Below are positions 18,271-56,741 of a stretch of DNA of 64,000 nt, in pieces. The stretch comes from Ectothiorhodospiraceae bacterium BW-2. Lineage in GTDB: Bacteria > Pseudomonadota > Gammaproteobacteria > Thiohalomonadales > Thiohalomonadaceae. Each line of letters starts with the position of its first letter. Within the stretch, counting starts at the first letter, position 1. A program made the position numbers and the translations under genes. The notes beneath the pieces were generated by a model. That model worked only from the letters and a program-made list of their open reading frames with translations. It did no database searches and was not told the DNA's origin. The stretch lies in contig CP032507.1 in assembly GCA_008375315.1 (NCBI GenBank), positions 2,938,071 to 3,002,070 on the forward strand. The letters are read 5' to 3'.

Positions 18271-18326
18271 AAGCCCCGAAAAATTTGTTTCACTACTCCC
18301 CTGATGAACCACAGAGGAGAACAGAG

Positions 18327-18713
18327 ATGCTGAACCCCACCCTAGCAGCCGTATCACAGGCCTTTAAAGATTGGCGGGAGAACCCGGAAAAGAGCGCGCG
18401 AAGCCGAATTCCCGAGGCGCTGCAACAACAAACCGTAGCGTTAATAGGCCACTACCCGGTGAGCCACATACTCAAAGCGCTGCGCATCAATTACCGTCAA
18501 CTCAGTAGCTGGAAGAAGAGCTGGGAGGAGAACAACACCATCCCGGGATTCATCGCGCTTGAACCGTCAGAGCCGACTAGCGAACCTCTTTTGGCTCTCA
18601 AATGGACGACCGAAACCACTACCGGTCGACCATTGAGTGTGGAGGGTGAGTTATCACCGGAACAATGGCGGCAACTACTGCCCCTGCTCAGCCAGATGGG
18701 AGCTAACTCATGA
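18327..18713 (+). CDS. tnpA: IS66 accessory protein TnpA
   Basis: 128 residues beginning LNPTLAAVSQAFKDWRENPE, with a helix-turn-helix-like region HYPVSHILKALRINYRQLSS. It matches the first ORF of IS66-type elements. I start at 18327, where GAGGAGAAC lies upstream, rather than 18285. Its last codons overlap tnpB by 4 bases (ATGA), the usual coupled arrangement. It appears intact, but the element as a whole is broken. Confidence 0.8.
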   Translation: MLNPTLAAVSQAFKDWRENPEKSARSRIPEALQQQTVALIGHYPVSHILKALRINYRQLSSWKKSWEENNTIPGFIALEPSEPTSEPLLALKWTTETTTGRPLSVEGELSPEQWRQLLPLLSQMGANS

Positions 18714-18967
18714 TCTACCTCACAGAACAGACTCCGGTGATGATAGCGACAGCACCGGCTGATTTTCGCCGTGGCATCGACGGCTTTGTCGCGCTGTGCC
18801 AACACCAACTCGGCCAACAGCCGCGCTCAGGCACCGTATTCACCTTTATCAACCGCTCCAAAACGATGATTCGCCTGCTGGTCTATGAGAACAATGGTTA
18901 CTGGCTGATGACCAAGCGCCTCTCCAAAGGCAAATACCGGGGTTGCCTCGCCCAGCAGAGCCGATAA
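18710..18967 (+). CDS. tnpB: IS66 Orf2 family protein TnpB
   Basis: 85 residues with the family pattern VMIATAPADFRRGIDGFVAL, GTVFTFINRSKTMIRLLVYE and GYWLMTKRLSKGKY. It is needed with TnpA and TnpC for IS66 transposition, but its biochemical role is unclear. The C-terminal end looks shorter or altered compared with the usual ~115 residues: after KGKYRG the expected W-rich end is replaced by CLAQQSR, so it may already be truncated. It overlaps tnpA by 4 bases. Confidence 0.8.
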   Translation: MIYLTEQTPVMIATAPADFRRGIDGFVALCQHQLGQQPRSGTVFTFINRSKTMIRLLVYENNGYWLMTKRLSKGKYRGCLAQQSR

Positions 18968-19617
18968 GTGCGATTAAGGCACAACAACTACGCCAACTCC
19001 TCTCAAATTTGGTAAAATGGCACCATCTGGATGACACACCCAACCGGATTTTGAATCAGGGCACGATTCTGAAGCCTGACAGAAGGAGCGGTCAACTTAA
19101 ACCCCGCAGCGGTACTTTCACTTCCGGCTTAATCGCGACACTGGAGAGTGGCCAACAAATCGTGCTCTACCAGACCGATATTGGCCATGCCGGAGAGTTG
19201 ATCGATGAGATTCTGCGTCTGCGCCATTCCGGGTTAGCCAAACCCACTATCATGTGCGATGCGCTCAGTCGCAATCTGCCTACGGTGCTGGATGAAACAC
19301 AGCGACACGATACATTCTGCAACAGCCACTGTAGGCGGGGGTTTGTGGATGTGGCAGAGCTGCATCCGGATAAAGTCCCGTGGGTGTTAGCGCTCTACGA
19401 CCCGGTGTGGCACCACGATGCTCACTGCAAGAAGGAGAAGTACACCCCGGCAGAGCGGCTGGCTTACCATCAGCAGCACTCACTACCGCTGATGGCGCAG
19501 CTCAAACAGTGGGGCGAGGCGCAGATTGAGAGTGGCGATACCGAGCCTACTGCCTCCCCCTCCCTCTGTTTAAGTCTATCAGGCCGGCTCCGAGGCCGTC
19601 ACGCTATGGTGGCGTAA
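18943..19617 (+). pseudogene. tnpC: Truncated IS66 transposase TnpC (central part)
   Basis: 224 codons resembling the middle of IS66 TnpC: ILNQGTILKPDRRSGQLKPR, IVLYQTDIGHAGELIDEIL, MCDALSRNLPTV, NSHCRRGFVDVAE and WVLALYDPVWHHDA. The zinc-finger N-terminus is absent and the reading shifts frame before LWWRKVT, giving a stop at 19615-19617. The C-terminal domain exists only as an inverted fragment at 17908-18270. The protein would lack the catalytic Glu and be inactive. Confidence 0.8.
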
Positions 19618-19623
19618 GGTTAC
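19601..19623 (+). repeat. 23-bp inverted repeat at IS66 breakpoint, right copy
   Basis: Exact opposite-orientation match of 18245-18267. Sequence to its right no longer encodes IS66 transposase. Confidence 0.9.
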
Positions 19624-19630
19624 ACTCGGT

Positions 19631-19733
19631 TTCCCAAATTATTTCGGCAGCGGTTGAGCAGAAGCTCATCAAGCTCGACCCGGGCGCTCCCGACTCCCGT
19701 AAATATGCGAGGTACATTCCCCATTGGGCTTAA
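19631..19733 (+). pseudogene. Unassigned C-terminal coding remnant
   Basis: An open stretch reads QIISAAVEQKLIKLDPGAPD then SRKYARYIPHWA and stop at 19731-19733. It has normal coding composition but no start and is cut by the IS66 breakpoint on the left. I cannot name the family. The region up to 19896 is otherwise AT-rich and non-coding, with a near-palindrome TGATATT/AATATCA around 19783-19797. Confidence 0.35.
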
Positions 19734-19896
19734 CCTTATTTCATTTTAACTGCAATGATAGCATCAACAAAATATATGTCATTGATATTAAATATCATTG
19801 TTATTTCATCGCAACCGGAACTAGCCACTATTTAGAGGCAAAAGGTCAAACATGAACGCCGATACAATCCCTGAGTGTCAAGATACCCTGAGACCA

Positions 19897-19928
19897 CCCC
19901 TGATGAGAAATGAATGTAGAATCAGGGG
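19897..19928. repeat. 8-bp inverted repeat near the left end of the IS3 element
   Basis: CCCCTGAT at 19897-19904 pairs with ATCAGGGG at 19921-19928. It lies just before the orfA ribosome site and may be part of the IS end or a structure limiting read-through into the transposase. Confidence 0.5.
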
Positions 19929-19948
19929 GGCAACAGAGGAGATACACG

Positions 19949-20353
19949 ATGCCCAAAGATACTACCGTTTTACCCTCCAACGAGGTTACCGACCCCGATG
20001 AAGAGAAGCGCTCCTACCGCAAATTTAGTGAGGAAGAGAAGCTTCGGATCCTAGCAGAAGCAGAGCAGTGCAAGGAGCCGGGTCAGCTAGGCGAGCTGCT
20101 GCGCAAAGAGCAGATCTACAGCTCCCATCTGACCAAATGGCGCCGACAACTGCAAGCACAGGGGCAGGCTGGCCTGAAAGGGAAACAGAGTGGTCGCAAA
20201 CCGAGCCTAGACAAGCGAGATAAGGAGATAGAGCGTTTAAAGAAGGAAATTCAGCGTCTTAGCCAACGGTTACAGCAGACCGAAGGGGTGATTGCGCTCC
20301 AAAAAAAAGCCTTCAGCTTATTGGAGCAGATGAACACAGAGATAAGCTTATGA
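19949..20353 (+). CDS. IS3-family transposase OrfA
   Basis: 134 residues with a helix-turn-helix DNA-binding domain (KRSYRKFSEEEKLRILAEAE, then LGELLRKEQIYSSHLTKWRR) and a leucine-rich coiled coil (about residues 85-125) for multimerisation. GAGGAGAT lies before ATG 19949, so I prefer it over 19910. Its stop overlaps orfB by ATGA. It appears intact. Confidence 0.88.
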   Translation: MPKDTTVLPSNEVTDPDEEKRSYRKFSEEEKLRILAEAEQCKEPGQLGELLRKEQIYSSHLTKWRRQLQAQGQAGLKGKQSGRKPSLDKRDKEIERLKKEIQRLSQRLQQTEGVIALQKKAFSLLEQMNTEISL

Positions 20354-21399
20354 GATTAGTTGAAAAAGAGTGCCCCAGTTCGGTGAGCATAAGAGCCGCT
20401 TGCGATAGCCTAGCGCTCTCGCGTGCAGGCTACTACCGCCGACAGGCTCCGGTTGTCTCCCCCCGAGCGAGCCTTCCAAGACCCGTCGCAGCCAATGCGC
20501 TGAGTGAGGCAGAGAGGCAAGCCGTTCTGGGGCTTTTGAACAGCGAACGATTCTATGACCAACCTCCGGCAGAGATCTATGCTAGCCTGCTGGATGAAGG
20601 GAAATATTACTGTTCAATCAGTACGATGTATCGGATCCTTCGTGCTAATCAACAGACGGGAGAGCGGCGAGCTCAAAAACCGGCCAAATCACACGCTATC
20701 CCCCGATTACGGGCGACCCGCCCGAATGAGGTTTGGACATGGGATATCACTAAGCTTCCCACCACAGAGCAGGGTAACTTCTTGAATCTCTATGTGGTGA
20801 TGGATCTCTACAGCCGTTTTATTGTGGCTTGGATGGTCTCAAGGAAGGAGAATAGTGAGCTCTCCAAGCTGTTAATCAGTGACGCAGCGGCTCGCTATCG
20901 GGTCGCGCTCAGTGGCTTAACACTGCATCAGGATAGAGGTGTGCCGATGACCGCCAGAGGCTATCTCGACTTGATGGCCGAACTGGGGATCACCTGCTCC
21001 CACAGCCGTCCACGAGTCAGTAACGACAATCCGTTTAGCGAGAGTCAATTTAAAACACTCAAGCAACAACCCGATTATCCTCAACGATTTACAGGAGTTG
21101 ACCATGCCAGAATATGGTTTAGTGACTATGTTGACTGGTACTGTTTCCACCACCACCATCGAGGGATTGCGTGGTTCACTCCAGAGCAGGTATTTACCGG
21201 TCGTTACAAGGAGGTTAGCGAGCAGCGTGAACAGGCGCTGAAGCAGGCCTATCAGCAGCATCCGAAACGCTTTATTCATGGTGAGCCCAAGGTTAAGCAA
21301 CCCCCTACTGAGGTATGGATTAACCCCGCTCTACCGGAGGAGGGGGTGGGGTCGCTGGAGGTCAACTATCCAACCCTGAATAGAGCGAAGGAGAGATGA
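20350..21399 (+). CDS. IS3-family transposase OrfB (DDE integrase core)
   Basis: 349 residues. An N-terminal HTH_21 region (SIRAACDSLALSRAGYYRRQ) is followed by an rve core with the complete DDE triad: Asp in VWTWDITKLPT, Asp in TLHQDRGVP and Glu in NPFSESQFKTLK, with 35 residues between the last two. All key residues are present, so the enzyme may be active. It starts in the ATGA overlap with orfA; coupling rather than -1 frameshifting seems used here, although a fused product cannot be excluded. The intact element sits next to decayed restriction-modification genes. Confidence 0.92.
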   Translation: MRLVEKECPSSVSIRAACDSLALSRAGYYRRQAPVVSPRASLPRPVAANALSEAERQAVLGLLNSERFYDQPPAEIYASLLDEGKYYCSISTMYRILRANQQTGERRAQKPAKSHAIPRLRATRPNEVWTWDITKLPTTEQGNFLNLYVVMDLYSRFIVAWMVSRKENSELSKLLISDAAARYRVALSGLTLHQDRGVPMTARGYLDLMAELGITCSHSRPRVSNDNPFSESQFKTLKQQPDYPQRFTGVDHARIWFSDYVDWYCFHHHHRGIAWFTPEQVFTGRYKEVSEQREQALKQAYQQHPKRFIHGEPKVKQPPTEVWINPALPEEGVGSLEVNYPTLNRAKER

Positions 21400-44662: not shown

Positions 44663-47600
44663 ATGAGCGAGAGTAAAACCGACTATCGCGCCTTAATGAC
44701 TAAGGCACTATTAGAGATTAAACAGTTAAAGGCGCAGCTAGCCGAGAGTGAACTGCGGCAGCGGGAGCCGATTGCGGTCATTGGCCGTGCCTGTCGCTTT
44801 CCTGGGGGGAGCGATAGCCCCGAAAACTACTGGCAGATGCTCTCTAACGGCACCGATGCGATTGTAGAGACCCCCCCCGAACGCTGGTCGGTGGCGCAGT
44901 TTGTCGATCCTGATCCTGAGGCACCGGGCAAAATATGTACCGCTTTAGGGGGGTATATCGATCAATCGCCGGCGCTGTTTGATGCCGCCTTTTTCTCAAT
45001 CTCACCGCGGGAGGCACAGAGCATGGATCCGCAGCAGCGACTCTTATTAGAGCTCTGCTGGGAGGCGCTAGAGGATGCGGCCATTGTGCCCGAGTCGCTG
45101 TTTCAGAGCCGTACTGGGGTCTTTATCGGCGTCAGTAGCCTCGATAACGCTACGCGTCTAATTGGCGATGCGTTAATGAGCGATATCGACGCCTACTACG
45201 GCACCGGCTGCGCCCTCGCGCCGATTGCAGGGCGCATCTCCTACCAGTTTGGTCTCACCGGCCCCAGCTTTATTGTCGATACCGCCTGCTCCTCCTCACT
45301 GCTATCACTCCATCTTGCTTGCGAAAGTCTGCGCCGTAGAGAGTGCGATTTGGCGCTTGGCAGCGGCGTGCAGCTACTGACCCACCCCGGCATCTCCATC
45401 GCCTTTACCAAAGCGCGTATGCTCTCGGTCGATGGCCACTGCAAGAGTTTTGACGCCGAAGCAAACGGCTATGTGCGCGGCGAAGGGGGCGGGGTGGCGG
45501 TACTAAAACGGCTCGCCGATGCCGAGCGCGACGGTGATACCCTTTTAGCCGTTATTCGCGGTTCAGCCGTCAATCAAGATGGCCCTAGCGGCGGGCTGAC
45601 CGTACCGAGCGGCCCCTCTCAGGAGGCGGTGGTGAAGCAGGCGCTCGCGAGCGGTCATATCGATCCGGCTGAGGTAAACTATATCGAAGCGCACGGCACC
45701 GGTACCCCCCTAGGTGATCCGATTGAGATCGGGGGGCTAGGGGCGCTGTTTGGTCGCTATCGCTCCGCCGACTCGCCACTCTATATCGGCTCGGTAAAGA
45801 CCAATATCGGCCATCTGGAGGCCGGAGCCGGTATCGCTAGTTTTCTGAAGGTGGTTGAGGCGCTGCAGCGGCAGCAGCTTCCGCCCCATCTTAATTTCAA
45901 GACCCCTAACCCATTGATTCGGTGGGCTGAACTCCCTGTCAAAATCCCGACCACCCTCACCCCATGGCAACCGGCGGTGGCGGGGGGGCGACGAACGGCC
46001 GGCATTAGCTCGTTCGGTTTTAGCGGTACCAATGTCCACTTAGTTGTCTCAGAGCCGCCACCGCAGCCGGCACCGGCCCCCTCTGAAGCGCCACTGCCGT
46101 GGCAGTTACTGCCGCTCGCGGCCAAGAGCCGAACTGCGCTACAGCAGTTAGCCGCTCGCTATCTCCAAAGGCTGCAACAGCCGCAGGCGAACTGGCCAGC
46201 CATCGCCCACTCGGCGGCGATGAGTCGCAGCCACTTTAACTACCGTTTAGGGGTCGCCGCCGCCGATGGTAGCAGTGCGATAGGGCTACTACAACAGGTC
46301 GCCGAGGGTCACTGGCCGCTCGAAGTGGCCCATGGTGAGGCGGTGGAGGGGGAGAGGCCACGGATCGCGTTTCTCTTTAGTGGTCAAGGATCGCAGTATC
46401 GCGGAATGGGGGCCGAGCTCTATCGGGCCGATACCCCCTTTCGGCAGACGCTAGATCGCTGCAATACGGTGCTACAGCCGCTGTTAGGTCGGCCACTGAC
46501 CGAGCTGCTGTTTGAGGCGGAGGAGGGGGTGTTAGATCAGACCGGAGTCACCCAGCCCGCCCTCTATGCGCTGGAGGTCTCACTCGCGGCGCTGTGGCGT
46601 TGGTGCGGTATTGAGCCGGTGGCGCTGCTTGGCCATAGTGTCGGTGAGTATGCCGCTGCCGCAGTTGCGGGCGTCTTTACGATTGAGGAGGGGGCAAGAT
46701 TGATTGCCGAGCGGGCGCGGCTGATGCAGGCGCTGCCAGAGGGGGGGGCGATGTGCGCTATTTTGACCGATCTTACCGCCATTGAGACGGCGATTGAGGC
46801 GGCGGGGTTGAGTTCGAAGCTGGTCGTTGCCACCCGCAACGGCCCTGCTAACAGCGTCATCTCCGGTGAGACGGCGGCCGTGAACCAACTCGCGCAGCAG
46901 TTTGAGGGCGCGGGGGTCGAGGTGCGTCCTCTTGCGGTCTCTCACGCCTTCCACTCGCCGTTAATGGAGCCGATATTGGCACCGTTTAGGGCAGTGGCGA
47001 CCACGATTAGCTACCAGGCTCCCAAGATTGCGCTCTACTCTAATCTGACAGGTCGTGTTGCCGGTCGTGAGATAGCGACTGCCGACTACTGGGTAGATCA
47101 TATTCGGCAGCCGGTCGATTTTGCAGGTGGAATGGGGGCGCTATTAGAGCAGGGGATAGATCTATTGATCGAAATCGGCCCAAAGCCGGTACTGTTAGGG
47201 ATGGGGCGTGCGCTTGCCGAGAGGCGGGGGCTGAGGCTGGGGACGAGTTTAGATCGCTGGCGCCCCTCGCTGCGACGCAATCGGAGTGAGTGGTCGCAGT
47301 GGTTACATAGCGTTGCTGCCTGTTGGTGTCACGGGGCTGAGATCGCGTGGGAGCGACTCGGCAGTGGGCGAGCCTCGCTACCGACCTATCCGTTTCAGCG
47401 CCGTCGCTACTGGCATGAGGTCGAGCTTGATCGCAAAGGGGGGGATGCGTTTTATGGCGAGCAGGCGCTAGATCAGCCGCTACTGGAGCGGCGGTTACAC
47501 TCCCCTCTCCTGAGTGAGCGGCTGTTTGAGAGTCGCTTTTCGCTCTCACGGCTCCCCTTTTTGGATGACCACCGTATTTTTGGCGAGTTGGTTGTCGCTG

Positions 47601-50185
47601 GGGCCTCCCATTTAGCGCTCATTTTAGGGGCGATGCAGGTTGAGAGCGGGCAGAGAGGGTGTCGGTTAGAGTCGGTGATGTTTCCGCAGGCGCTGGTGAT
47701 TTTGCAGGGGGGCGAGCGGACGGTGCAGCTAGCGCTCACTCCACTGGCGGAGGGGGCGGGTCGCTACCGTTTTCGTTTGGTGAGCTTCTCGCTTGAGCGG
47801 CAAGATATGCGTGTTCACGCCCAAGGCGAGGTGGTGCCGATCGCTGATGAGACTGGTGAGGCTGGTGAGGCTGGTGGCTCTGTCGCGCCGGTCGCACGGG
47901 AGCCGATTTGGCAGCGCTGTCAGCAGGCCATCGCGGTCGAGTCGGTCTATCAGACTCAGGCAGAGCGCCACATTGTGGTCGGTGCAGGCTATCGTTGGCT
48001 AGAGCAGGTTCGGCTCGGCGAGGGGGAGGCGGTCGCTAGCTTCACTCCCCCGGCAGGGCTGGAGCGGGAGGTGGCTCGCTATCAGCTCCACCCGGGGTTA
48101 ATCGACTCCTGCTTTGGGGTGTTGGTGATGACCCATCCGATGGCAGTTGAAGAGAGCTTTATTCCGTTTGCCCTAGAGGCGCTGGAGCTACAGCGTCCGC
48201 CACAGCAGGGGGAGAGGCTATGGACTCATGCACGGCTGCGGCGTGAGAGTCTCAGCGCCGAACGGTTGGTGGGCGATATTGAACTCTATAGTGACCAGGG
48301 GGAGCCTATCGCCCGCTTTATTGGCCTTGAGGGGCGGAAAGCGAGTCAAGCGGCGCTGCTCGCTTCGCTCGGTGGGGGGTTAGAGAACCACCTCTACCGA
48401 CCGCAGTGGCAACCGCTATCGACAGCGGCCCCTACCTCTACGGCGGTGAGCGGCGAGTGGCTGTTAATTGCCGATAGTGGCGGCGTGGCGACAGCGCTAG
48501 CTGCAGCGCTGCGGCAGGGAGGGGCGAGTCGGGTTGTTATCGCCGAGGCCGAGTGTGATCGCTGGGAGGCGCTGCTCAAGCGGGATGACTCGGCTCCGTG
48601 GCAGGGGGTTGTACTGCTCTCGTCGCTCAATGAGCGCCAAGATGAGGGCAGCGAAGCGCAACAGCAGCGACTCTACGGCACCGCACTGACGCTACTACAG
48701 CAGCTACTACAGCACCCACGAGCGCAGCAGCTCTGGTGGGTGACCGAACAGGTGTGGCCGGTGAGCGGGAGCGAGAGTCGGCGACAGCCGTGGCAGGCGA
48801 CGCTATGGGGGCTCGGTAAGAGCGCTCTGTTAGAGCAGAGTCAGCTAGCTGTTCGCATGGTCGATTTAGCCACCGCCTCTGCCGAGGCGCAGGCGCAGCA
48901 GCTCCTACAGGCGCTAGCGCACGCTGATGAGCCGCTGCTAGCATGGCGCGAGGGGCAGCTCTTTGGCCAACGAGTTGTCGCAGTGGAGCGCTCTACCCTC
49001 TCGCCGCCGCGTCGCTTTACCCCCGAACGCAGCTATCTCATTACTGGCGGGCTCGGCGGGTTAGGGCTGGCGCTGGCCGAGTGGTTAGTGGCTGAAGGGG
49101 TGACCTCCCTGCTACTAACAACCCGTAGCGAGCCGACTCGTGAACAGCTAACGCGACTCGAACAGCTACGAGAGCAGGGGGCTAGGGTGGCGCTGCTACG
49201 GGCCGATATTAGCCAGCTCGATCAGCTAGCCGACGCGCTAGAGCGGCTGCCGGGCGATCTACCGGCGTTGGTGGGCATCTTCCATCTTGCGGGGGTGGTT
49301 GACGATGGTGCGGTGGCGCAGCTAGCGTGGGCACAGGCTTACCGCCCCCTAGCGGCCAAGGTGGCCGCCACCCACCATCTGCTGCGCTTAACCGCTGCCA
49401 TGCCGCTGGAGTTTATCGCCCTCTTCTCCTCAGTGACCTCACTCTTAGGGGGGGTCGGGCAGGCGAACTATGCCGCCGCTAACAGCTACCTCGATGCCGT
49501 GGCCGCAGCCTACCCTGAGCGGCCTATCGTCGCGCTCAACTGGGGGCCGTGGAGCGATATCGGCATGGCCGCTAGGTTAGCTGAGCGGGAGCTGCAGCGT
49601 ATTCGAGAGCAGGGGGTGGCACTGATTGCTCCGCGTGAGGCGCTACAGCTCCTGCCGCAGCTCTTAGGTGGGGCCATACCGCAGCTAGCGATATTACCCT
49701 TCGACTGGCATCGATTTCAGGCGGCGCTACCGACGATGGTCGCGCCACTGCGCCCCGATGATCCCCTTCAGGCAGAGGGGGGGGCGCTGCTACGACAGCT
49801 ACAGCCGCTTCCCCCCTCCCGGCGCCACTCAGAGCTGCTGCGCTATCTGAGCGCGATTGTGGTTGATGTACTGCGCCTAGAGCCTGAGAGCGAGATTAAC
49901 CCACGCGAGCGACTGTTCGATCTCGGCATCGACTCGCTGATGGCGGTGGAGCTTAAAAATCGGCTCCAGCTCGATCTACAGCAACCGATTAGCTCAACGC
50001 TGCTGTTTGACTACCCCACGCTGGAGTCGCTAAACGACTATCTGCTCAAACAGCTACTCGCATCAGCGTTCGTGGCCGAACAGAATGAGAAGAGGGGTGA
50101 GACGACGACAGCGCTTGATCAGCTAAGCGAAGAGGAGGCCGAAGCGGCACTGCTAGCCGAGCTAGCGAAGTTAGAGTCAGAATAG
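44663..50185 (+). CDS. Type I modular polyketide synthase, KS-AT-DH-KR-ACP
   Basis: 1840 residues from ATG 44663, chosen for GAGGG just upstream. A helical N-terminus (~1-35) resembles a docking segment. KS (~36-460): Cys209 in DTACSSS, His344 in EAHGTGT, His384 in KTNIGH. AT (~575-870): Ser659 in GHSVGEY and His764 in SHAFHSP, the HAFH pattern of malonyl-CoA-specific domains. DH (~940-1230): His970 and Asp1148 present, but the usual HxxxGxxxxP has Ala instead of Pro. KR (~1300-1640): GGLGGLG, Tyr1603 in QANYAAAN, VDD pointing to B-type stereochemistry. ACP: Ser1758 in GIDSL. The end LSEEEAEAALLAELAKLES looks like a C-terminal docking helix. No enoylreductase, methyltransferase or thioesterase. 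It sits 49 bases from the second synthase. Confidence 0.95.
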   Translation: MSESKTDYRALMTKALLEIKQLKAQLAESELRQREPIAVIGRACRFPGGSDSPENYWQMLSNGTDAIVETPPERWSVAQFVDPDPEAPGKICTALGGYIDQSPALFDAAFFSISPREAQSMDPQQRLLLELCWEALEDAAIVPESLFQSRTGVFIGVSSLDNATRLIGDALMSDIDAYYGTGCALAPIAGRISYQFGLTGPSFIVDTACSSSLLSLHLACESLRRRECDLALGSGVQLLTHPGISIAFTKARMLSVDGHCKSFDAEANGYVRGEGGGVAVLKRLADAERDGDTLLAVIRGSAVNQDGPSGGLTVPSGPSQEAVVKQALASGHIDPAEVNYIEAHGTGTPLGDPIEIGGLGALFGRYRSADSPLYIGSVKTNIGHLEAGAGIASFLKVVEALQRQQLPPHLNFKTPNPLIRWAELPVKIPTTLTPWQPAVAGGRRTAGISSFGFSGTNVHLVVSEPPPQPAPAPSEAPLPWQLLPLAAKSRTALQQLAARYLQRLQQPQANWPAIAHSAAMSRSHFNYRLGVAAADGSSAIGLLQQVAEGHWPLEVAHGEAVEGERPRIAFLFSGQGSQYRGMGAELYRADTPFRQTLDRCNTVLQPLLGRPLTELLFEAEEGVLDQTGVTQPALYALEVSLAALWRWCGIEPVALLGHSVGEYAAAAVAGVFTIEEGARLIAERARLMQALPEGGAMCAILTDLTAIETAIEAAGLSSKLVVATRNGPANSVISGETAAVNQLAQQFEGAGVEVRPLAVSHAFHSPLMEPILAPFRAVATTISYQAPKIALYSNLTGRVAGREIATADYWVDHIRQPVDFAGGMGALLEQGIDLLIEIGPKPVLLGMGRALAERRGLRLGTSLDRWRPSLRRNRSEWSQWLHSVAACWCHGAEIAWERLGSGRASLPTYPFQRRRYWHEVELDRKGGDAFYGEQALDQPLLERRLHSPLLSERLFESRFSLSRLPFLDDHRIFGELVVAGASHLALILGAMQVESGQRGCRLESVMFPQALVILQGGERTVQLALTPLAEGAGRYRFRLVSFSLERQDMRVHAQGEVVPIADETGEAGEAGGSVAPVAREPIWQRCQQAIAVESVYQTQAERHIVVGAGYRWLEQVRLGEGEAVASFTPPAGLEREVARYQLHPGLIDSCFGVLVMTHPMAVEESFIPFALEALELQRPPQQGERLWTHARLRRESLSAERLVGDIELYSDQGEPIARFIGLEGRKASQAALLASLGGGLENHLYRPQWQPLSTAAPTSTAVSGEWLLIADSGGVATALAAALRQGGASRVVIAEAECDRWEALLKRDDSAPWQGVVLLSSLNERQDEGSEAQQQRLYGTALTLLQQLLQHPRAQQLWWVTEQVWPVSGSESRRQPWQATLWGLGKSALLEQSQLAVRMVDLATASAEAQAQQLLQALAHADEPLLAWREGQLFGQRVVAVERSTLSPPRRFTPERSYLITGGLGGLGLALAEWLVAEGVTSLLLTTRSEPTREQLTRLEQLREQGARVALLRADISQLDQLADALERLPGDLPALVGIFHLAGVVDDGAVAQLAWAQAYRPLAAKVAATHHLLRLTAAMPLEFIALFSSVTSLLGGVGQANYAAANSYLDAVAAAYPERPIVALNWGPWSDIGMAARLAERELQRIREQGVALIAPREALQLLPQLLGGAIPQLAILPFDWHRFQAALPTMVAPLRPDDPLQAEGGALLRQLQPLPPSRRHSELLRYLSAIVVDVLRLEPESEINPRERLFDLGIDSLMAVELKNRLQLDLQQPISSTLLFDYPTLESLNDYLLKQLLASAFVAEQNEKRGETTTALDQLSEEEAEAALLAELAKLESE

Positions 50186-50234
50186 ATTGTGAGCCGACTT
50201 GTTACTATCTTTACATTTAGGGATTCTATAGACC

Positions 50235-53200
50235 ATGACGGAAATATCACCCACTAAACGGGCGCTACTCGCTCTGCAGGAGATGCAGGCAAAGGTAGCT
50301 AAACTAGAGGCGCAACAGCGGGAGCCGATTGCGGTGGTAGCGATGGCGTGCCACCTTCCCGGTGGGGTTAACTCGCCGCAACAGTTAAGGACTCTCTTGC
50401 AGCAGCAGGGGGAGGGGATTGTTGAAATCCCCCCCGAGCGGTGGGATGTTGACGCCTACTACGATCCCGATCCTGACGTGGCAGGAAAGTCGTACACCCG
50501 TTACGGGGGTTTTTTGAGTGATATCGACCAGTTTGACCCCGCCTTCTTTGGTATCTCACCGCGAGAAGCGCACTCGATCGATCCACAGCAGCGGCTGCTG
50601 CTACAGACCGCATGGGAGGCGCTAGAGAATGGCGGCTTTGACCCTAACGCCCTCTATGGCAGCAACACCGGCGTCTATGTGGGGGTGAGTAATTTTGAGT
50701 ATGGTGCCCATCTGATCTGGCCCGACGATGTGCGCCAAATCAGCGCCTACGCCGGTACGGGGGGCTCATTGGGGGTGACTGCCGGACGGCTCTCCTACAC
50801 TTTCGGTTTTACCGGCCCGAGTCTTATTGTCGATACCGCCTGCTCCTCCTCTCTGATTACCACCCATCTGGCGATGCAGGCGCTACGGCTCGGTGAGTGC
50901 GATATGGCGCTCTCAGCTGGGGTGAACCTAATTCTAGGCCCCGAGACCCATATCAACTTCTGCAAGGCGCGTATGTTGAGCGCCGATGGTCGCTGCAAAA
51001 CCTTCTCCGCTGCCGCTGATGGCTATGCTCGCGGTGAAGGGGTGGGGGTGTTGGTGTTAAAGCGGCTCGCCGATGCTGAGCGCGATGGCGATACGATTTT
51101 GGCGCTACTGCGCGGCTCGGCGGTTAATCAAGATGGCCCAAGTGGCGGCTTAACGGTACCGAACGGCCCCTCACAAGTTAAGGTGATTGAACAGGCGTTA
51201 GCCGCTGCGGCCTTAACCCCTGCGCAGATAGGCTATCTCGAAGCCCACGGCACCGGTACGGCGCTGGGCGATCCGATTGAGATGGGGGCGATAGGGAGCG
51301 TCTTTGCCGCAGCCGAGCGGGCGCAGCCGCTCTGGGTCGGCTCGATTAAGACCAATATCGGCCACTTAGAGTCGGCTGCCGGTATCGCCGGTCTAATGAA
51401 GGCGATTTTATCGCTACACCATGGTGAAATTTACAGCCATCGCCACTTTCACGAGCCGAGTCCCTATATCGACTGGGCGTCGCTGCCGGTGGTCATCCCG
51501 ACCGAGTTAACCCCATGGTTAACCGAGGAGCGCTTCGCCGGGGTTAGCTCTTTTAGCTTTAGTGGCACCAACGCCCACCTTATCCTCTCCAACTATCGTG
51601 ACGCTGATGATCAGGGTAGGGATCAGGGTGAGGGCGGGGCGCTCAAGCCCGTCGCTCCCCCCACCCAGCGACGACTACTGCCCCTATCGGCCAAAAGCGA
51701 GGCGGGGCTAATGGCGTTAGCAGAGCGCTACGCCACGGCGCTAGAGCAGCTCCCGTTGGCAAAGTGGCATCCATTTGTCGCCGCCGCCGCTCGGGGGCGA
51801 GGCCACTATAGCCACCGCTTAGCGCTGGTCGCCGACTCGCCGCAACAGGCGGCGCTGCGGCTACGGGAGGGGGGAGTCGAACAGGGGCGGGCGGGTGCCG
51901 CTTCGCGACGCCTAGCGCTACTCTTTACCGGTCAGGGGGCACAATACCCTGGTATGGGGCGGGAGCTCTATGAGAGTGAACCGCTGTTTCGACAGACGCT
52001 AGAGCGCTGTGACGCCATCGCCACACCGCTACTTGGGGTATCGCTGCTAGAGCTGCTCTATCAACGAGAGGTGGATGAGGGGCTGGAGGCTGAGTTTGCC
52101 CGTACCGATTTGACACAACCTCTGCTGTTTGCCATCGAGTACGCGCTAGCTCAACTCTGGCTCAGTTGGGAGATCGAAGTGGAAGCGGTCATGGGACACA
52201 GTGTCGGCGAGCTGGTGGCTGCGACGGTGGCCGGCCTCTGGTCGTTAGAACAGGGGATGAGGCTGGTCTGCCAGCGCGGTAAGTTGATGGCAGAGCGGTG
52301 TCAGCACGGGGCGATGATCGCAGTGACCCTAAGCGAAGCGGCGCTTAGCGAGCGGTTGCGCTCGTTCGATAGCCAACAGGTGACGCTAGCGACAATGAAT
52401 GGCCCCGAGAGTGTCACCGTCGCCGGAGAGAGCCGAGCGGTAGCGGCACTGCAGCAGCAGCTAGAGCGTGACGGCATCGAGGTGAAGCGGCTACGGGTCT
52501 CCCACGCCTTCCATTCGCCACTGGTCGAACCGATGGTCGAACCTTTTCGTCACGCGGTGGAAGCGGTGACGATGCAGCCACTACAGCTAGCGCTAGTGAG
52601 TAATGTGAGTGGCACTTTTATCGATAACGATGAGGCGGCCTCTGCCGACTACTGGTGTCGCCATATTCGCCAGCCAGTCCAGTTTCAGCGCGGGATTAAG
52701 ACGCTGCTCGATAGCGGCATCGATACTTTTATCGAGATAGGCCCTAAACCGCTGTTAACGGCGCTAGGCGAGTCAATTGCCGCCGCAAGGGGGGACGAGA
52801 GAGCGCTACTGTGGCTCCCCTCGCTGCGCTATAGCCGCCCCCCGTGGCAGCAGCTACTCCAGAGTCTGGCTCGACTCTACTGCCACGGTGTCGATCAGGC
52901 GGTGCGGGGGGTGGCTCCAGCGACGGCTCGCTATGCGGTGACACTGCCGACGATGGCCTTTATCACTGATCGTTACTGGCTAGAGTCGAGCTCCTCCCCC
53001 GCGCGTGCCGGCCACCCCCTCTTAGGGGAGCGAATCGACTCCCCGCTACTGCCAGAAGGGGCGCTCTTTCACAACTCGCTCTCCACCTTGACGGTTAGCT
53101 TTTTAGCCCACCACCAGATTTTTGGCCAAGTTGTGCTACCGGCAGCGGCCCATATCGAGATGGCACTGACGGCGGCGGTGGCGCTATTAGGTCAGGGGGC

Positions 53201-56200
53201 GGAGCTACAAGCGGTGACGATTGAGCAGGCACTGGTGCTCCCCCCCGAGGCGGAACTACCGCTACAGATGGTGGTTGAGCGTCAGCAAGATCACTACCGC
53301 TTTACCCTCTATGCCCAGCGGAGTCATCAGTGGCAGCGCCATACCAGTGGCGAACTCGTCCCAAAGAGCCAGCTCTCGCCACAACGAATCGACTTAGCGG
53401 CGCTACAGCAGCGCTGCCAACAGCCCTATCCGGTGGCGGAGTACTATCGCCTAACCCGCTCGGTCGGGATTGAACATGGCGAAGATTTTCAGGCGGTCAC
53501 CGCGCTCTGGTTAGGGGAGGGGGAGGTGTTGGCGCAATTAGAGCTCCCGACGACGCTGAGCGCGACAGCGAGCGACTTTCAGCTCCATCCGGTGCTGTTA
53601 GATGCCGCCTTTCAGATGGTGGGGGTGCCGCTACTGGCCCGTCACACCCCCTTCCTGCCGGTAGGGCTAGAGCAGCTACGCTGCTATCGCCGTTTACCGA
53701 CTAACCTCTGGTGCCGCGTTATCGCCCCGACCCCTGAGGGGGAGATTAGCCGCTTTGATGCCGATCTACAGCTACTCGATGAGAGCGGTGAGGTGGTGGC
53801 CGATGTGGTGGCGCTCCATTTTCAAAAGGTAGATCCCTCCGCTTTAGCCCTAACCGATACCCGCTACGATAGCTGGCTCTATCGTCTCGATTGGCCGATA
53901 GAGTCGCTGGTCTGTGGTAGTGCGGCGGCGCTGACCGGCCCTAAGGCGATAGCGGCTGAGCTAGCGCCGTTACAGCGGCAGCTACTCGACTCGTGCCGTT
54001 TCTACCGCCCCCTCTTTGAGCGGCTAGAGGCGTTGGCAGCCGCTTTAGTCTGCCAAGCGCTGCTCGATTGTGGGTGGCAGGCGGCGGTCGGTAGTCGTGG
54101 AACAGTGATCGAGCTAATAGCGCAGCTAGCGATTATTGAGAGTCAGCGAGCGCTATTTCGGCGCTCGCTGCAGATCCTAAGCGAGACGGGGATTTTGGCG
54201 TTAGAGGGGGAGCATTGGCAGCTATTAGAGCCACTGTTGCCGTTAAATCGGGCCGAGGTTGAGGCGCTACAGCACGATTTTATCGAGGCGGCAGCGGAGA
54301 TTACCCTTACCCTTCGTTGTGGCCAGGCGTTAGCGCAGGTCTGGCGGGGAGAGATCGAGCCGCTACAGCTCCTCTTTCCAGAGGGCGACTTGGGGGTGAC
54401 GACGCTGCTCTATCAGCACTCAGTCGGGGCGAAGGCGATTAATCAGCTCTTAGCTGCGGCGGTGAGACGCGCGATGGCCACGCTGCCGCTAAATCGGGCA
54501 GTGCGTATTGTCGAAATTGGCGGGGGGACTGGAGGCACCACAGTGCAGCTACTGCCGCAGCTCCCACCGCAGCGCTGCGACTACCTCTTTAGCGATATCT
54601 CCAGCCACTTTACCCGCCTCGCCGAGCAGCAGTTTGCTGGTGACTACCCCTTTGTTCGTTATGGGGTTATCGATATCGAACAGGGGGCTGATGCGGCGCT
54701 GCATGGGCAGTTCGATTTGGTCATTGCCGCCAATGTGGTCCACGCCACGGCCGATTTAGCGACCACTATCGACCACTGTCGGCAGCTACTCGCTCCGGAT
54801 GGGGTGGTGATCTTGCTGGAGGCGGCCGCGAAACAGCGCTGGCTCGATCTCAGTTTTGGGATGACAGAGGGGTGGTGGCGTTTTGGTGGCCGTGATGCGA
54901 TGCGCCACGACTACCCCTTACTAACCGCCGCACAGTGGCAGCAGCTGTTACCGCAGTGGGGGCTCAGCGAGGTGGCGCTACTCACCCCCGATCAGCTCGG
55001 TGAGGGGGAGTTTATTAAGCAGAGCGTGATTATGGCTCGCGGCGAGAGGGCGGCGGTAGCGCCGCTAGCAGGTCGTTGGCTGCTCTTAGGCGCAGCCGAT
55101 GAGTGCGCGTTGTTTGCTAACCAGTTTGAGCAGGTAGAGTCGTTCACTGTCGCCGCCTGGCAGCAGCTAGATAGAGAGGCGCTACAGCCGTGGCAGGGGG
55201 CGTTACTCCTCTATCCGCTCTCACTCGACACCACTCAGCCACTCTCGACGCAGTGGCGGCAGCTCTGCCAGCCGCTGCTACAGTGGCTATCGCTAGCACC
55301 GACGATACCGCTAACGCTAGTGAGCCAGTACGATGCGACTCTGACCACGGCGCCGCTCTCCTCCCTGCTGCATGGGATTGTGCGTACAGTCGCGAATGAG
55401 CAGCCCCAGTGTCAGCTTCGTCTGCTTGAGTTGACGACCGAGATATCGCCCTCAGAGAGGGTGGCGATGGTGATGGAGGAGCTGCGAAACGGTGAGGGTG
55501 AGACGATCGTCACTATCGATAGTGACGGTCGCCATCTAGCACGACTACACGATGCCGATACGACCCACCGCGCCGTCGTGGCTATCGATGCTGAGGCGAG
55601 CTACCTAATCAGTGGCGGTTTAGGGGAGCTGGGGTTGGAGATGGCTCGCTATCTGGTGCAGCAGGGGGCGCGTTATCTGCTGCTCATCGGCCGCTCTCAA
55701 CCGTCGTCAGAGGCAGAGGCGCTACTGAGCGAACTCCGGCAGCAGGGGGCTGAGCTTGAGATAGCTCAACTTGATATTAGCGATCAACACGCGCTGCAAC
55801 AGCTACTGCAACAGCCTCGCCCGCCGTTAAAGGGGGTGATTCATGCGGCGGGTAATCTGGCAGATGGGGTGCTACAGCAGATGAGCTGGGCGCAGTTTGA
55901 GTCTCTTCTGCCCGCTAAAGTGGCGGGGGCTTGGGCGCTGCATCAGGCGACACTCGAACAACCGCTGGATCTCTTCATTCTACTCTCCTCCGTCGCCTCG
56001 ATCTTTGCCCCGCCTGGGCAAGGCAACTATGCCGCCGCTAACGCCTTTTTGGATCAGTTAGCACGATTGCGGCAGCGCCAAGGGCTACCGGCGCTGGTGA
56101 TTAACTGGGGTGCTTGGTCGGAGAAGGGGTTGGCGGTTCGTAAAGGCGATTTAGCTCAGATCGAAACGCAGGGGGTAGGGACGCTGACAACCGCAGCGGG

Positions 56201-56741
56201 GATGGCGATATTTGACCGCATCTATCGCTGGCAGGGGCAGGTCGTGGCGGTGCCGATTGAGTGGCCGAAGCTACTCCAGCTACAGCGTGAGCTGCCACTG
56301 CTAAACCACTACCGCCAGCGGCAGCAAAGAGCGGATGCTGAGGGAAGCGAGTTGCAAGGGGCGGTGTGGCTAGAGGAGTTAACACAGCTACCGTACAGTG
56401 AGCAGCGTGAACAGCTATTATTGGCGGTCAAGCAGCAGGTAGCGAAGGTACTTGGCAGCCGTGTCGAGAGTCTCGATATCGATACCGGTCTGTTCGATTT
56501 AGGGATGGACTCACTCACCTCGGTAGAGCTGCGCAATCAGCTACAGAGCCACTTTGGGCTCGATCTCCCCTCGACACTGCTGTTTAAATACCCCAATATC
56601 GCCGCTGTAAGTGACTATCTGCTAGGAGAGCTGTTCGATAACGACCCACCCGAGCCAACATCGGCGAGTGAGACCGACATCGCCACAATGAGTGATGCGG
56701 AGCTAGAGGCGTTAATTAACAGTGAGTTAGAGGATTTATAA
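50235..56741 (+). CDS. Type I modular polyketide synthase, KS-AT-DH-cMT-KR-ACP
   Basis: 2168 residues. The N-terminal helix (~1-33, RALLALQEMQAKVAKLEAQQ) can dock to the upstream synthase. KS: Cys203, His338, His377. AT: Ser656 in GHSVGE, His760 in SHAFHSP, malonyl type. DH: His960 in HQIFGQVVLP, a canonical motif, and Asp1123. A C-methyltransferase (~1310-1560) shows VEIGGGTGGTTVQLLPQL at ~1426 and FDLVIAANVVHAT. KR (~1580-1970): SGGLGELGLE, Tyr1932 in GQGNYAAANAF, LAD of a B-type. ACP: Ser2093 in GMDSL. The tail SDAELEALINSELEDL is a docking-like helix, suggesting a further partner. There is no thioesterase or reductase, so chain release must be done elsewhere. Expected action on the chain is two-carbon extension with alpha-methylation and dehydration to a 2-methyl-2-enoyl unit; this is inferred from domains. 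Confidence 0.95.
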   Translation: MTEISPTKRALLALQEMQAKVAKLEAQQREPIAVVAMACHLPGGVNSPQQLRTLLQQQGEGIVEIPPERWDVDAYYDPDPDVAGKSYTRYGGFLSDIDQFDPAFFGISPREAHSIDPQQRLLLQTAWEALENGGFDPNALYGSNTGVYVGVSNFEYGAHLIWPDDVRQISAYAGTGGSLGVTAGRLSYTFGFTGPSLIVDTACSSSLITTHLAMQALRLGECDMALSAGVNLILGPETHINFCKARMLSADGRCKTFSAAADGYARGEGVGVLVLKRLADAERDGDTILALLRGSAVNQDGPSGGLTVPNGPSQVKVIEQALAAAALTPAQIGYLEAHGTGTALGDPIEMGAIGSVFAAAERAQPLWVGSIKTNIGHLESAAGIAGLMKAILSLHHGEIYSHRHFHEPSPYIDWASLPVVIPTELTPWLTEERFAGVSSFSFSGTNAHLILSNYRDADDQGRDQGEGGALKPVAPPTQRRLLPLSAKSEAGLMALAERYATALEQLPLAKWHPFVAAAARGRGHYSHRLALVADSPQQAALRLREGGVEQGRAGAASRRLALLFTGQGAQYPGMGRELYESEPLFRQTLERCDAIATPLLGVSLLELLYQREVDEGLEAEFARTDLTQPLLFAIEYALAQLWLSWEIEVEAVMGHSVGELVAATVAGLWSLEQGMRLVCQRGKLMAERCQHGAMIAVTLSEAALSERLRSFDSQQVTLATMNGPESVTVAGESRAVAALQQQLERDGIEVKRLRVSHAFHSPLVEPMVEPFRHAVEAVTMQPLQLALVSNVSGTFIDNDEAASADYWCRHIRQPVQFQRGIKTLLDSGIDTFIEIGPKPLLTALGESIAAARGDERALLWLPSLRYSRPPWQQLLQSLARLYCHGVDQAVRGVAPATARYAVTLPTMAFITDRYWLESSSSPARAGHPLLGERIDSPLLPEGALFHNSLSTLTVSFLAHHQIFGQVVLPAAAHIEMALTAAVALLGQGAELQAVTIEQALVLPPEAELPLQMVVERQQDHYRFTLYAQRSHQWQRHTSGELVPKSQLSPQRIDLAALQQRCQQPYPVAEYYRLTRSVGIEHGEDFQAVTALWLGEGEVLAQLELPTTLSATASDFQLHPVLLDAAFQMVGVPLLARHTPFLPVGLEQLRCYRRLPTNLWCRVIAPTPEGEISRFDADLQLLDESGEVVADVVALHFQKVDPSALALTDTRYDSWLYRLDWPIESLVCGSAAALTGPKAIAAELAPLQRQLLDSCRFYRPLFERLEALAAALVCQALLDCGWQAAVGSRGTVIELIAQLAIIESQRALFRRSLQILSETGILALEGEHWQLLEPLLPLNRAEVEALQHDFIEAAAEITLTLRCGQALAQVWRGEIEPLQLLFPEGDLGVTTLLYQHSVGAKAINQLLAAAVRRAMATLPLNRAVRIVEIGGGTGGTTVQLLPQLPPQRCDYLFSDISSHFTRLAEQQFAGDYPFVRYGVIDIEQGADAALHGQFDLVIAANVVHATADLATTIDHCRQLLAPDGVVILLEAAAKQRWLDLSFGMTEGWWRFGGRDAMRHDYPLLTAAQWQQLLPQWGLSEVALLTPDQLGEGEFIKQSVIMARGERAAVAPLAGRWLLLGAADECALFANQFEQVESFTVAAWQQLDREALQPWQGALLLYPLSLDTTQPLSTQWRQLCQPLLQWLSLAPTIPLTLVSQYDATLTTAPLSSLLHGIVRTVANEQPQCQLRLLELTTEISPSERVAMVMEELRNGEGETIVTIDSDGRHLARLHDADTTHRAVVAIDAEASYLISGGLGELGLEMARYLVQQGARYLLLIGRSQPSSEAEALLSELRQQGAELEIAQLDISDQHALQQLLQQPRPPLKGVIHAAGNLADGVLQQMSWAQFESLLPAKVAGAWALHQATLEQPLDLFILLSSVASIFAPPGQGNYAAANAFLDQLARLRQRQGLPALVINWGAWSEKGLAVRKGDLAQIETQGVGTLTTAAGMAIFDRIYRWQGQVVAVPIEWPKLLQLQRELPLLNHYRQRQQRADAEGSELQGAVWLEELTQLPYSEQREQLLLAVKQQVAKVLGSRVESLDIDTGLFDLGMDSLTSVELRNQLQSHFGLDLPSTLLFKYPNIAAVSDYLLGELFDNDPPEPTSASETDIATMSDAELEALINSELEDL

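Follow-up and report, generated by a model that had tools for sequence, protein, structure and literature searches.

Puwainaphycins and minutissamides are made in cyanobacteria from the puw cluster. It encodes a fatty acyl-AMP ligase (FAAL) start, a methylating polyketide synthase (PKS), a PKS module with an aminotransferase (AMT), and nonribosomal peptide synthetases (NRPSs) with a terminal release domain, and it includes an Asn/Gln-type adenylation (A) domain (PMC4219810). In MycA, FAAL, PKS, AMT, and NRPS parts are found in one open reading frame (ORF) (PMC4219810). Three starter strategies have been described for such enzymes (PMC13252402). The window analyzed here is a 64,000-nucleotide stretch (C1:2938071-3002070, forward) of the single-contig, 4.07 Mb genome of Ectothiorhodospiraceae bacterium BW-2 (99.73% complete; G000) and carries two adjacent type I PKS genes, PKS1 and PKS2. 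Very likely they code for the second and third extension modules of a single hybrid NRPS-PKS assembly line, which is encoded at six separate places in the chromosome. Orthologs of the set are encoded in three further genomes (G056, G136, and G293), where they are distributed differently over the contigs. The initial annotation recognized no named pathway; the enzymology of the line is of the kind known from puwainaphycin and mycosubtilin. The product is probably a modified lipopeptide, and a sulfotransferase-processed β-amino type is the best reading of the domain content.

PKS1 and PKS2 are both encoded on the + strand with no internal stops, and their 4,008 codons with curated domain scores are open far beyond chance. 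An ATG at 44663 was taken as the start of PKS1, within a longer TTG frame from 44651. Every Pfam domain call in PKS1 (KS-AT-DH-KR-ACP) and PKS2 (KS-AT-DH-MT-KR-ACP) is above its gathering cut-off, consistent with the domain orders initially assigned to the two synthases. Each module has a KS, AT, and ACP with active-site residues, as in cis-AT modular type I PKSs, the DH of PKS1 being atypical. Both proteins have the KS Cys/His/His, AT Ser with HAFH, KR Ser-Tyr-Asn, and ACP DSL motifs, and PKS2 also has the MT glycine motif. We take HAFH to indicate a malonyl-type AT. The initial description of complete active sites thus holds for the KS, AT, KR, MT, and ACP motifs and for the PKS2 DH but not for the PKS1 DH, which reads HRIFGELVVA and DSCFG and so deviates at two positions from the canonical HxxxGxxxxP and DxxxQ/H. 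All four orthologs, G000 included, have the DSCFG form. The HxxxGxxxxA form was matched in three of the four, while the search pattern found no DH1 motif in G136. As these changes are kept in the orthologs, an altered or inactive DH1 appears to be a conserved trait. The 2-methyl-dienoyl unit first proposed for the pair is therefore uncertain, since DH1 is atypical and the starter synthase described below would add a further ketide.

Candidate partners were located by searching G000 (Table 1). The KS search gave 11 matches: PKS1, PKS2, a FAAL-PKS, a KS-AT protein, a protein we call B15, a separate NRPS-PKS (L014), one further frame (L007), and four in a locus resembling a polyunsaturated fatty acid (PUFA) synthase. 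Four matches to a condensation domain correspond to A15, which is encoded with B15, to L014, and to two domains in an NRPS ending in a thioesterase (NRPS-TE). Four TE matches were found, including a type II TE (TEII) adjoining an ABC exporter. Genes of the line occupy five other places, at distances of 331 to 1,849 kb from PKS1 and PKS2. That PKS1 and PKS2 take their chain from another enzyme and pass it on, as first suggested, is very probable with these partners at hand. The pair is, in this reading, not a compact two-module PKS but part of a longer line, with the loading and release parts displaced rather than missing. The L007 match is a 419 amino acid (aa) frame that appears FabF-like by eye.

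The domains of the partners are consistent with a β-amino lipopeptide line. The best-scoring fatty-acid models for the FAAL domain describe AMP ligases, with scores short of their curated cut-offs (432.5 of 775 bits); among solved structures it is related to a chain labelled polyketide synthase (E 2e-137) and to FadD32-type AMP ligases. For the AMT region of A15, the closest solved chain is mycosubtilin synthase subunit A (E 6e-146). The sulfotransferase (ST) of NRPS-TE matches the CurM ST (E 1.9e-61), and the exporter exceeds the cut-off of TIGR01194 (cyclic peptide export). The KS-AT protein was considered as a truncated gene. This was rejected because G056, G136, and G293 encode orthologs that stop at almost the same position and also lack an ACP. 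In G136 a second FAAL-PKS is followed by an 889 aa KS with a degenerate AT and no visible ACP, a further example of a terminal KS lacking a carrier (L199 3188-13640, contig C33). A single fused cyanobacterial KS-AT-ACP-AMT protein of 1643 aa (L082, Nostocales HT-58-2) aligns, in pieces, with KS-AT over its residues 11-918 and through its residues 973-1621 with residues 14-649 of A15. The best reading is therefore that KS-AT and the beginning of A15 together make up one module divided into two halves.

The gene order in the related genomes ties the front of the line together. In G293, one strand of contig C113 carries B15, a DUF697 gene, and the genes for the exporter and TEII. These are followed by a cysC-like gene (by eye) and two genes for membrane proteins, and then by FAAL-PKS and PKS1; PKS2 and KS-AT come after an intervening AsmA-like gene. 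This collinearity on one contig indicates that FAAL-PKS, PKS1, PKS2, KS-AT is a real gene order. KS-AT is directly 3' of PKS2 in G056, G136, and G293; in G056 the two overlap by four bases, with FAAL-PKS, PKS1, A15-B15-exporter-TEII, and NRPS-TE on other contigs. G136 has other contig combinations, with A15 apart from B15-exporter-TEII and NRPS-TE in two contig pieces. Each genome keeps different adjacencies, and combined these rebuild most of one cluster. Beyond KS-AT, G293 C113 continues with HBDH-like, ACP, acyl-CoA-dehydrogenase-like, and FkbH-like genes (by eye; L290-L291, 39958-43313), which suggests a hydroxy- or methoxymalonyl-type extender unit there. In G000 the interval between A15 and B15 encodes a small membrane protein that looks by eye like an M50-type peptidase (L015 8898-9569); it was not seen at that position in G056.

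The KS phylogeny separates the module positions, and the docking ends of G000 favor this order, if narrowly. A KS tree with 195 rows resolves every one of the five module positions as a single four-genome clade with a support of 100 (quick method, Shimodaira-Hasegawa-like approximate likelihood ratio test), with G000 always outside the other three genomes. The tree also served as the check proposed in the initial annotation: the KSs of the pair group with modular type I PKSs, far from the FabF-like KS of G000 (branch 7.65), in a tree that contained no PUFA-type KSs. The docking-like helical N-termini and acidic C-termini noted at the outset are present in both proteins and could be scored against neighboring tail/head pairs. 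From 80 loci, 75 such pairs were collected; removal of an ortholog (L048) left 74 pairs from 42 loci. When one locus at a time was left out, the true pairing came first in 17 of 21 loci compared to 7.0 by chance. By eye, helical heads are seen on three of the KS proteins found in G000 (PKS1, PKS2, KS-AT) and acidic tails likewise on three (FAAL-PKS, PKS1, PKS2), and these close into one chain. On both docking scores the order FAAL-PKS, PKS1, PKS2, KS-AT ranks first of the six possible, with a clear margin on one (1.646 versus 1.521). Toward the end of the line, the B15 tail (EEEWEEGVL) resembles by eye the tails that, in L058 and L124, come before NRPS proteins whose heads are of the APKG type, and NRPS-TE of G000 begins with a TubC_N head (Pfam).

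Table 1. PKS1 and PKS2 with their domains and docking-like ends (window positions), and candidate partners elsewhere in G000.
Feature	Position	Strand	Description
PKS1	44663..50185	+	Docking head-KS-AT-DH-KR-ACP-docking tail, 1840 aa; predicted module 2; orthologs 54.7-54.9% identical in G056, G136, G293
PKS1 N-terminal docking-like helix	44678..44764	+	DYRALMTKALLEIKQLKAQL; read from translation; predicted partner: FAAL-PKS tail
PKS1 KS	44765..45898	+	DTACSSS, HGTGT, KTNIGH
PKS1 AT	46370..47251	+	GHSVGE, HAFH
PKS1 DH, atypical	47477..48358	+	HRIFGELVVA and DSCFG
PKS1 KR	49031..49558	+	Pfam and motif
PKS1 ACP	49844..50044	+	GIDSL
PKS1 acidic C-terminal docking-like tail	50108..50182	+	LSEEEAEAALLAELAKLESE
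PKS2	50235..56741	+	Docking head-KS-AT-DH-cMT-KR-ACP-docking tail, 2168 aa; predicted module 3; orthologs 55.7-56.9% identical
PKS2 N-terminal docking-like helix	50244..50321	+	SPTKRALLALQEMQAKV
PKS2 KS	50322..51449	+	Pfam and motifs
PKS2 AT	51921..52772	+	GHSVGE, HAFH
PKS2 DH, canonical	53013..53840	+	HQIFGQVVLP, LHPVLLDAAFQ
PKS2 C-methyltransferase	54510..54809	+	EIGGGTG
PKS2 KR	55596..56123	+	Pfam and motif
PKS2 ACP	56427..56621	+	GMDSL
PKS2 acidic C-terminal docking-like tail	56673..56738	+	MSDAELEALINSELEDL; predicted partner: KS-AT protein, 1,482 kb distant
FAAL-PKS (L012)	776 kb from pair		2450 aa, FAAL-ACP-KS-AT-DH-KR-ACP; putative starter synthase
KS-AT protein (L013)	1,482 kb from pair		1323 aa, without ACP
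A15 and B15 (L015)	692 kb from pair		A15, ACP-AMT-C-A-PCP; B15, KS-AT-KR-ACP
NRPS-TE	1,849 kb from pair		2838 aa, TubC_N-C-A-PCP-sulfotransferase-C-A-PCP-TE
TEII and cyclic-peptide-type ABC exporter	331 kb from pair

Several results weigh against a single fixed line. The second docking score separates the favored order by a small margin (0.598 versus 0.595), and the PKS2 tail taken alone gives the PKS2 head a slightly higher score than the KS-AT head (0.517 versus 0.503 and 0.241 versus 0.186 on the two scores). Such cross-scores are not low and, among the front genes of G000, only PKS1 and PKS2 are adjacent, both of which would suit a pair acting alone or with several alternative partners as a small combinatorial set. 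Given the fixed gene order in G293, the equal number of heads and tails in G000, and the clade-by-position phylogeny, we see a very slim chance of this.

The back of the line is joined to the front less directly, as A15 and NRPS-TE are on two G293 contigs other than C113. What links them to the front is co-occurrence, the fact that A15 and B15 are neighbors in G000 and G056, ACP logic, and the TubC_N head. The front proteins could then be one system and A15-B15 with NRPS-TE a second, unrelated lipopeptide system, KS-AT handing its chain to a stand-alone ACP or releasing it. The KS-AT protein lacks an ACP and a visible docking-type tail, and a 77-78 aa ACP-like gene lies near it in G293. However, B15, the exporter, and TEII share the G293 contig with the front genes, and A15 adjoins B15 in two genomes. 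The halves KS-AT and A15 are also one protein in L082, and all four examined genomes with KS-AT encode orthologs of A15, B15, and the NRPS (in G136 the NRPS in two contig pieces). Two systems are thus unlikely, and one line remains our preferred reading. Also to be counted against it, the extender-unit-like genes of G293 were not found in 12 stretches of G000 searched, a small part of the genome.

The assemblies of G056, G136, and G293 are multi-contig, and in G136 both PKS1 and PKS2 end near contig ends, so some of the separations in these genomes may be contig breaks. Repeated megasynthase domains can mislead assemblers. Beyond this general point, none of our analyses support the separation of the genes being an assembly error. 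Every piece in G000 lies within a single contig with unrelated genes on both sides, and the independent assemblies of G056 and G136 also separate the pieces, several beside unrelated genes; an error of this kind is hardly credible. Strict motif patterns gave no match to the second KS His in the PKS2 orthologs of G056 and G136, to HGTGT in KS-AT of three genomes, or to the KR GGLG in PKS1 of three. No common upstream motif above chance was found: the six 300-base regions share an 8-mer in at most three of six, a level also reached by 76 of 200 mononucleotide shuffles, which leaves joint regulation unproven.

The scattered genes are intact. The seven megasynthase genes of G000 comprise 13,872 codons with no internal stop. 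Third-position changes exceed second-position changes 2.4 to 4.6-fold in all 14 gene comparisons, and the best reading of these sequences is that the scattered line is still under purifying selection. GC content at third codon positions is 0.63-0.67 in the seven genes versus 0.60-0.62 in five ordinary genes. The orthologs keep the KS Cys motif in the front proteins (16/16), the AT Ser motif (20/20), and the KR Ser-Tyr-Asn (16/16), while the B15 KS reads NSACSTS or NTACSTS, a variant ACSTS form. These features, along with retention of the same set in four genomes, argue against the genes being relics of a broken cluster that is no longer productive. Consistent with such relics are the atypical DH1, transposase-like genes near two of the six places (by eye), one of them splitting a urease-like gene, and the PUFA-like locus of G000, which is in pieces (by eye). 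Taken together, we give decay a slim chance.

The PUFA-synthase-like locus (L016 2319-14469; G000 C1:14-26 kb) is in many overlapping frames by eye, unlike the intact megasynthases; its broken frames could reflect decay or sequencing error. About 2 kb from the TEII and exporter genes, an element resembling an insertion sequence (IS) splits a urease-accessory-like gene (L252 1538-4243; G000 C1:2.65 Mb, by eye). The 1794-base element recurs with an identical sequence at L016 15860-17653.

As judged from the domains, the predicted protein contacts, starter, amino acids, and product would follow six steps. FAAL-PKS would activate a fatty acid, load its own ACP, and add one malonate that is keto-reduced and dehydrated. 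PKS1 would add a malonate with an active KR and a doubtful DH, and PKS2 a third that is C-methylated, reduced, and dehydrated. The carrier-less KS-AT may then add the last ketide onto the N-terminal ACP of A15, where the aminotransferase would form the β-amine before the C-A-PCP of A15 adds an amino acid, predicted to be Asn. B15 would next add a β-hydroxy ketide. In the last step, the TubC_N-headed NRPS would add Thr and then Gly, with an inline CurM-like sulfotransferase, and the TE would release the product. TEII may edit, and the cyclic-peptide-type ABC transporter may export. The A-domain codes DATKVGEVG, DFWNIGMVH, and DILQLGMVW presumably specify Asn, Thr, and Gly, which places the sulfotransferase between the predicted Thr and Gly modules. 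The cysC-like gene of the G293 cluster could be a source of the sulfotransferase donor. With hand-over via docking ends, we propose, neighboring genes would not be needed. The scattering itself may reflect rearrangement of an ancestral cluster.

Like puw, the line has a FAAL start, a methylating PKS, a PKS-aminotransferase β-amino unit, and an NRPS with terminal release; L082 was taken as puw-like from its layout and aligns with KS-AT plus A15. Unlike puw, it has three full PKS modules before the AMT module, a split AMT module, an inline sulfotransferase, and a predicted short peptide. With mycosubtilin and iturin it shares the FAAL start and AMT (PMC4219810), differing by the extra PKS modules, the inline ST, and scattered genes. 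Measured against FAAL-initiated β-amino lipopeptide systems, a FAAL with ACP at the start is encoded in the same genome, 776 kb away (with the FAAL models below NCBIfam cut-offs). A MycA-type AMT PKS module is present, split over two proteins, as are NRPS modules with a terminal TE. One gene cluster is largely found in G293 but not in G000, so we claim that the line works like this kind with its genes scattered. The PKS1 KS-AT has CurL of the curacin system as its closest solved chain, and the ST of the line matches that of CurM. In CurM, the ST-TE module is likewise at the end of the line. The olefin synthase line also terminates in an ST-TE module (PMC11837247); here the ST is instead between two NRPS modules. 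The puw genes form one 56.7 kb cluster (PMC4219810), unlike the scattered genes of this line.

Scattering of such genes is rare and hides pathways from gene-cluster searches. Its precedent is the patellazole (ptz) genes of the symbiont Ca. Endolissoclinum faulkneri, scattered throughout the genome, for which rearrangement of an ancestral cluster was proposed (PMC3851785). That genome is reduced to 1.48 Mb (PMC4552006), and the gene table lists a separate trans-acting AT (PMC3851785). In both systems, core synthase genes are at several chromosomal places. The present line differs from ptz in its cis ATs, in a 4.07 Mb genome that is not reduced, and in relatives in several states including mostly clustered; the genomes here are not small. 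The nemamide pathway of C. elegans is a hybrid PKS-NRPS with genes scattered over chromosomes, though it belongs to an animal and has two large synthases with trans-acting helpers (PMC8363725). Most pateamine genes are in two loci 40 kb apart (PMC7157528). In the searched text of openly licensed PubMed Central papers, no precedent closer than these came up: we found neither a cis-AT NRPS-PKS line reported as scattered in any bacterium of this genome size nor a description of this β-amino lipopeptide pathway with an inline sulfotransferase and split AMT module.

We lean toward the view that a full cis-AT NRPS-PKS line functions without clustering in full-sized genomes. Its relatives would be at differing stages of break-up, hand-over would be by docking ends alone with clustering dispensable, the KS-AT/ACP-AMT module would be split between unlinked genes, and an inline sulfotransferase would act mid-line on Thr. 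The set defines a predicted β-amino lipopeptide pathway with the last two features. Genome mining presumes that the genes of one line are together, and a rule-based finder is expected to return several unconnected partial clusters here. Four genomes with differing adjacencies, one largely clustered, offer a direct test of cluster break-up and of docking-end sufficiency.

The comparison covered 80 loci kept out of 183 relatives. The relative of PKS2 with the highest identity (54%) among them is L048, from the uncultured Thiotrichales metagenome-assembled genome KR_bin-0880 (G056, the same as G292 by contig numbers and places). A close cluster with a known product was sought among the 80 loci and rejected; L066, L112, and L053 have similar layouts but different ends, and the best pieces of L066 and L112 reach at most about 49% identity. 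At 1e-120, the KS-AT protein was matched in 15 of 274 genomes drawn from the class, G000 included. Its C-terminal AT half was found besides G000 only in G136 among the matches listed (two candidates scored per genome). At 1e-200, KS-AT was matched in three of four genomes in the order of G136 and PKS1 in three of 20 in the order of G000. The other two of these (G001 and G006) are partial matches (43-50%), and no full-length PKS1 match was found at this threshold in the 19 other genomes of that order. G001, in the family of G000, has many PKS pieces, several on short contigs (C8, C44, C54, C58, C77, C92, C98, C115, C120, C122), which are not orthologs of the line in the parts compared.

The nine proteins of the line are 50.4-65.5% identical between G000 and the others and 71.4-83.0% among the others (the NRPS was not compared in G136), the seven G000 megasynthases being 54.7-60.6% identical to their orthologs. 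Housekeeping proteins of G000 and G136 are in the same range (nusA 62.7, infB 58.3, truB 54.3, and rbfA 35.3%), so common inheritance of the line is possible, although PKS1 had no full-length match at 1e-200 in the 19 other genomes of the order of G000. The phosphopantetheinyl transferase (PPTase) search of G000 gave one match, and the frame chosen is 34.5-38.2% identical to the PPTases of the relatives; because of this low identity it was not counted in the set. The PPTase genes of the relatives (L195 400-1107, L250 15734-16447, L293 3336-4136) are 71.9-73.0% identical to each other and sit near different pieces of the line in the three genomes: FAAL-PKS (L195), A15 (L250), and NRPS-TE (L293).

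The genes flanking PKS1 and PKS2 code for a β-aspartyl-peptidase-like asparaginase, tyrS, a DAO-type oxidoreductase, a Cys/Met PLP enzyme, and DUF455. They are ordinary genes unrelated to the pair and, in agreement with the initial annotation, include no loading module, ER, TE, KSQ, PPTase, or tailoring gene. The tyrS next to the pair was rejected as a spare-copy self-resistance gene, as G000 has one tyrS above the cut-off and the other match, at 23.6 bits, is below it. Rfam and tRNA scans of the window gave no matches. Elsewhere in G000, L014 (4617-15823; C1:1.70 Mb) is a separate, self-contained NRPS-PKS with its own TE, comprising two A domains, one C, a KS, an AT, and the TE. After it come two small genes of SnoaL-like type and one resembling an oxidoreductase gene (all by eye). 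Within the window, ORFs at 18285-21399 resemble by eye IS66- and IS3-type transposase genes.

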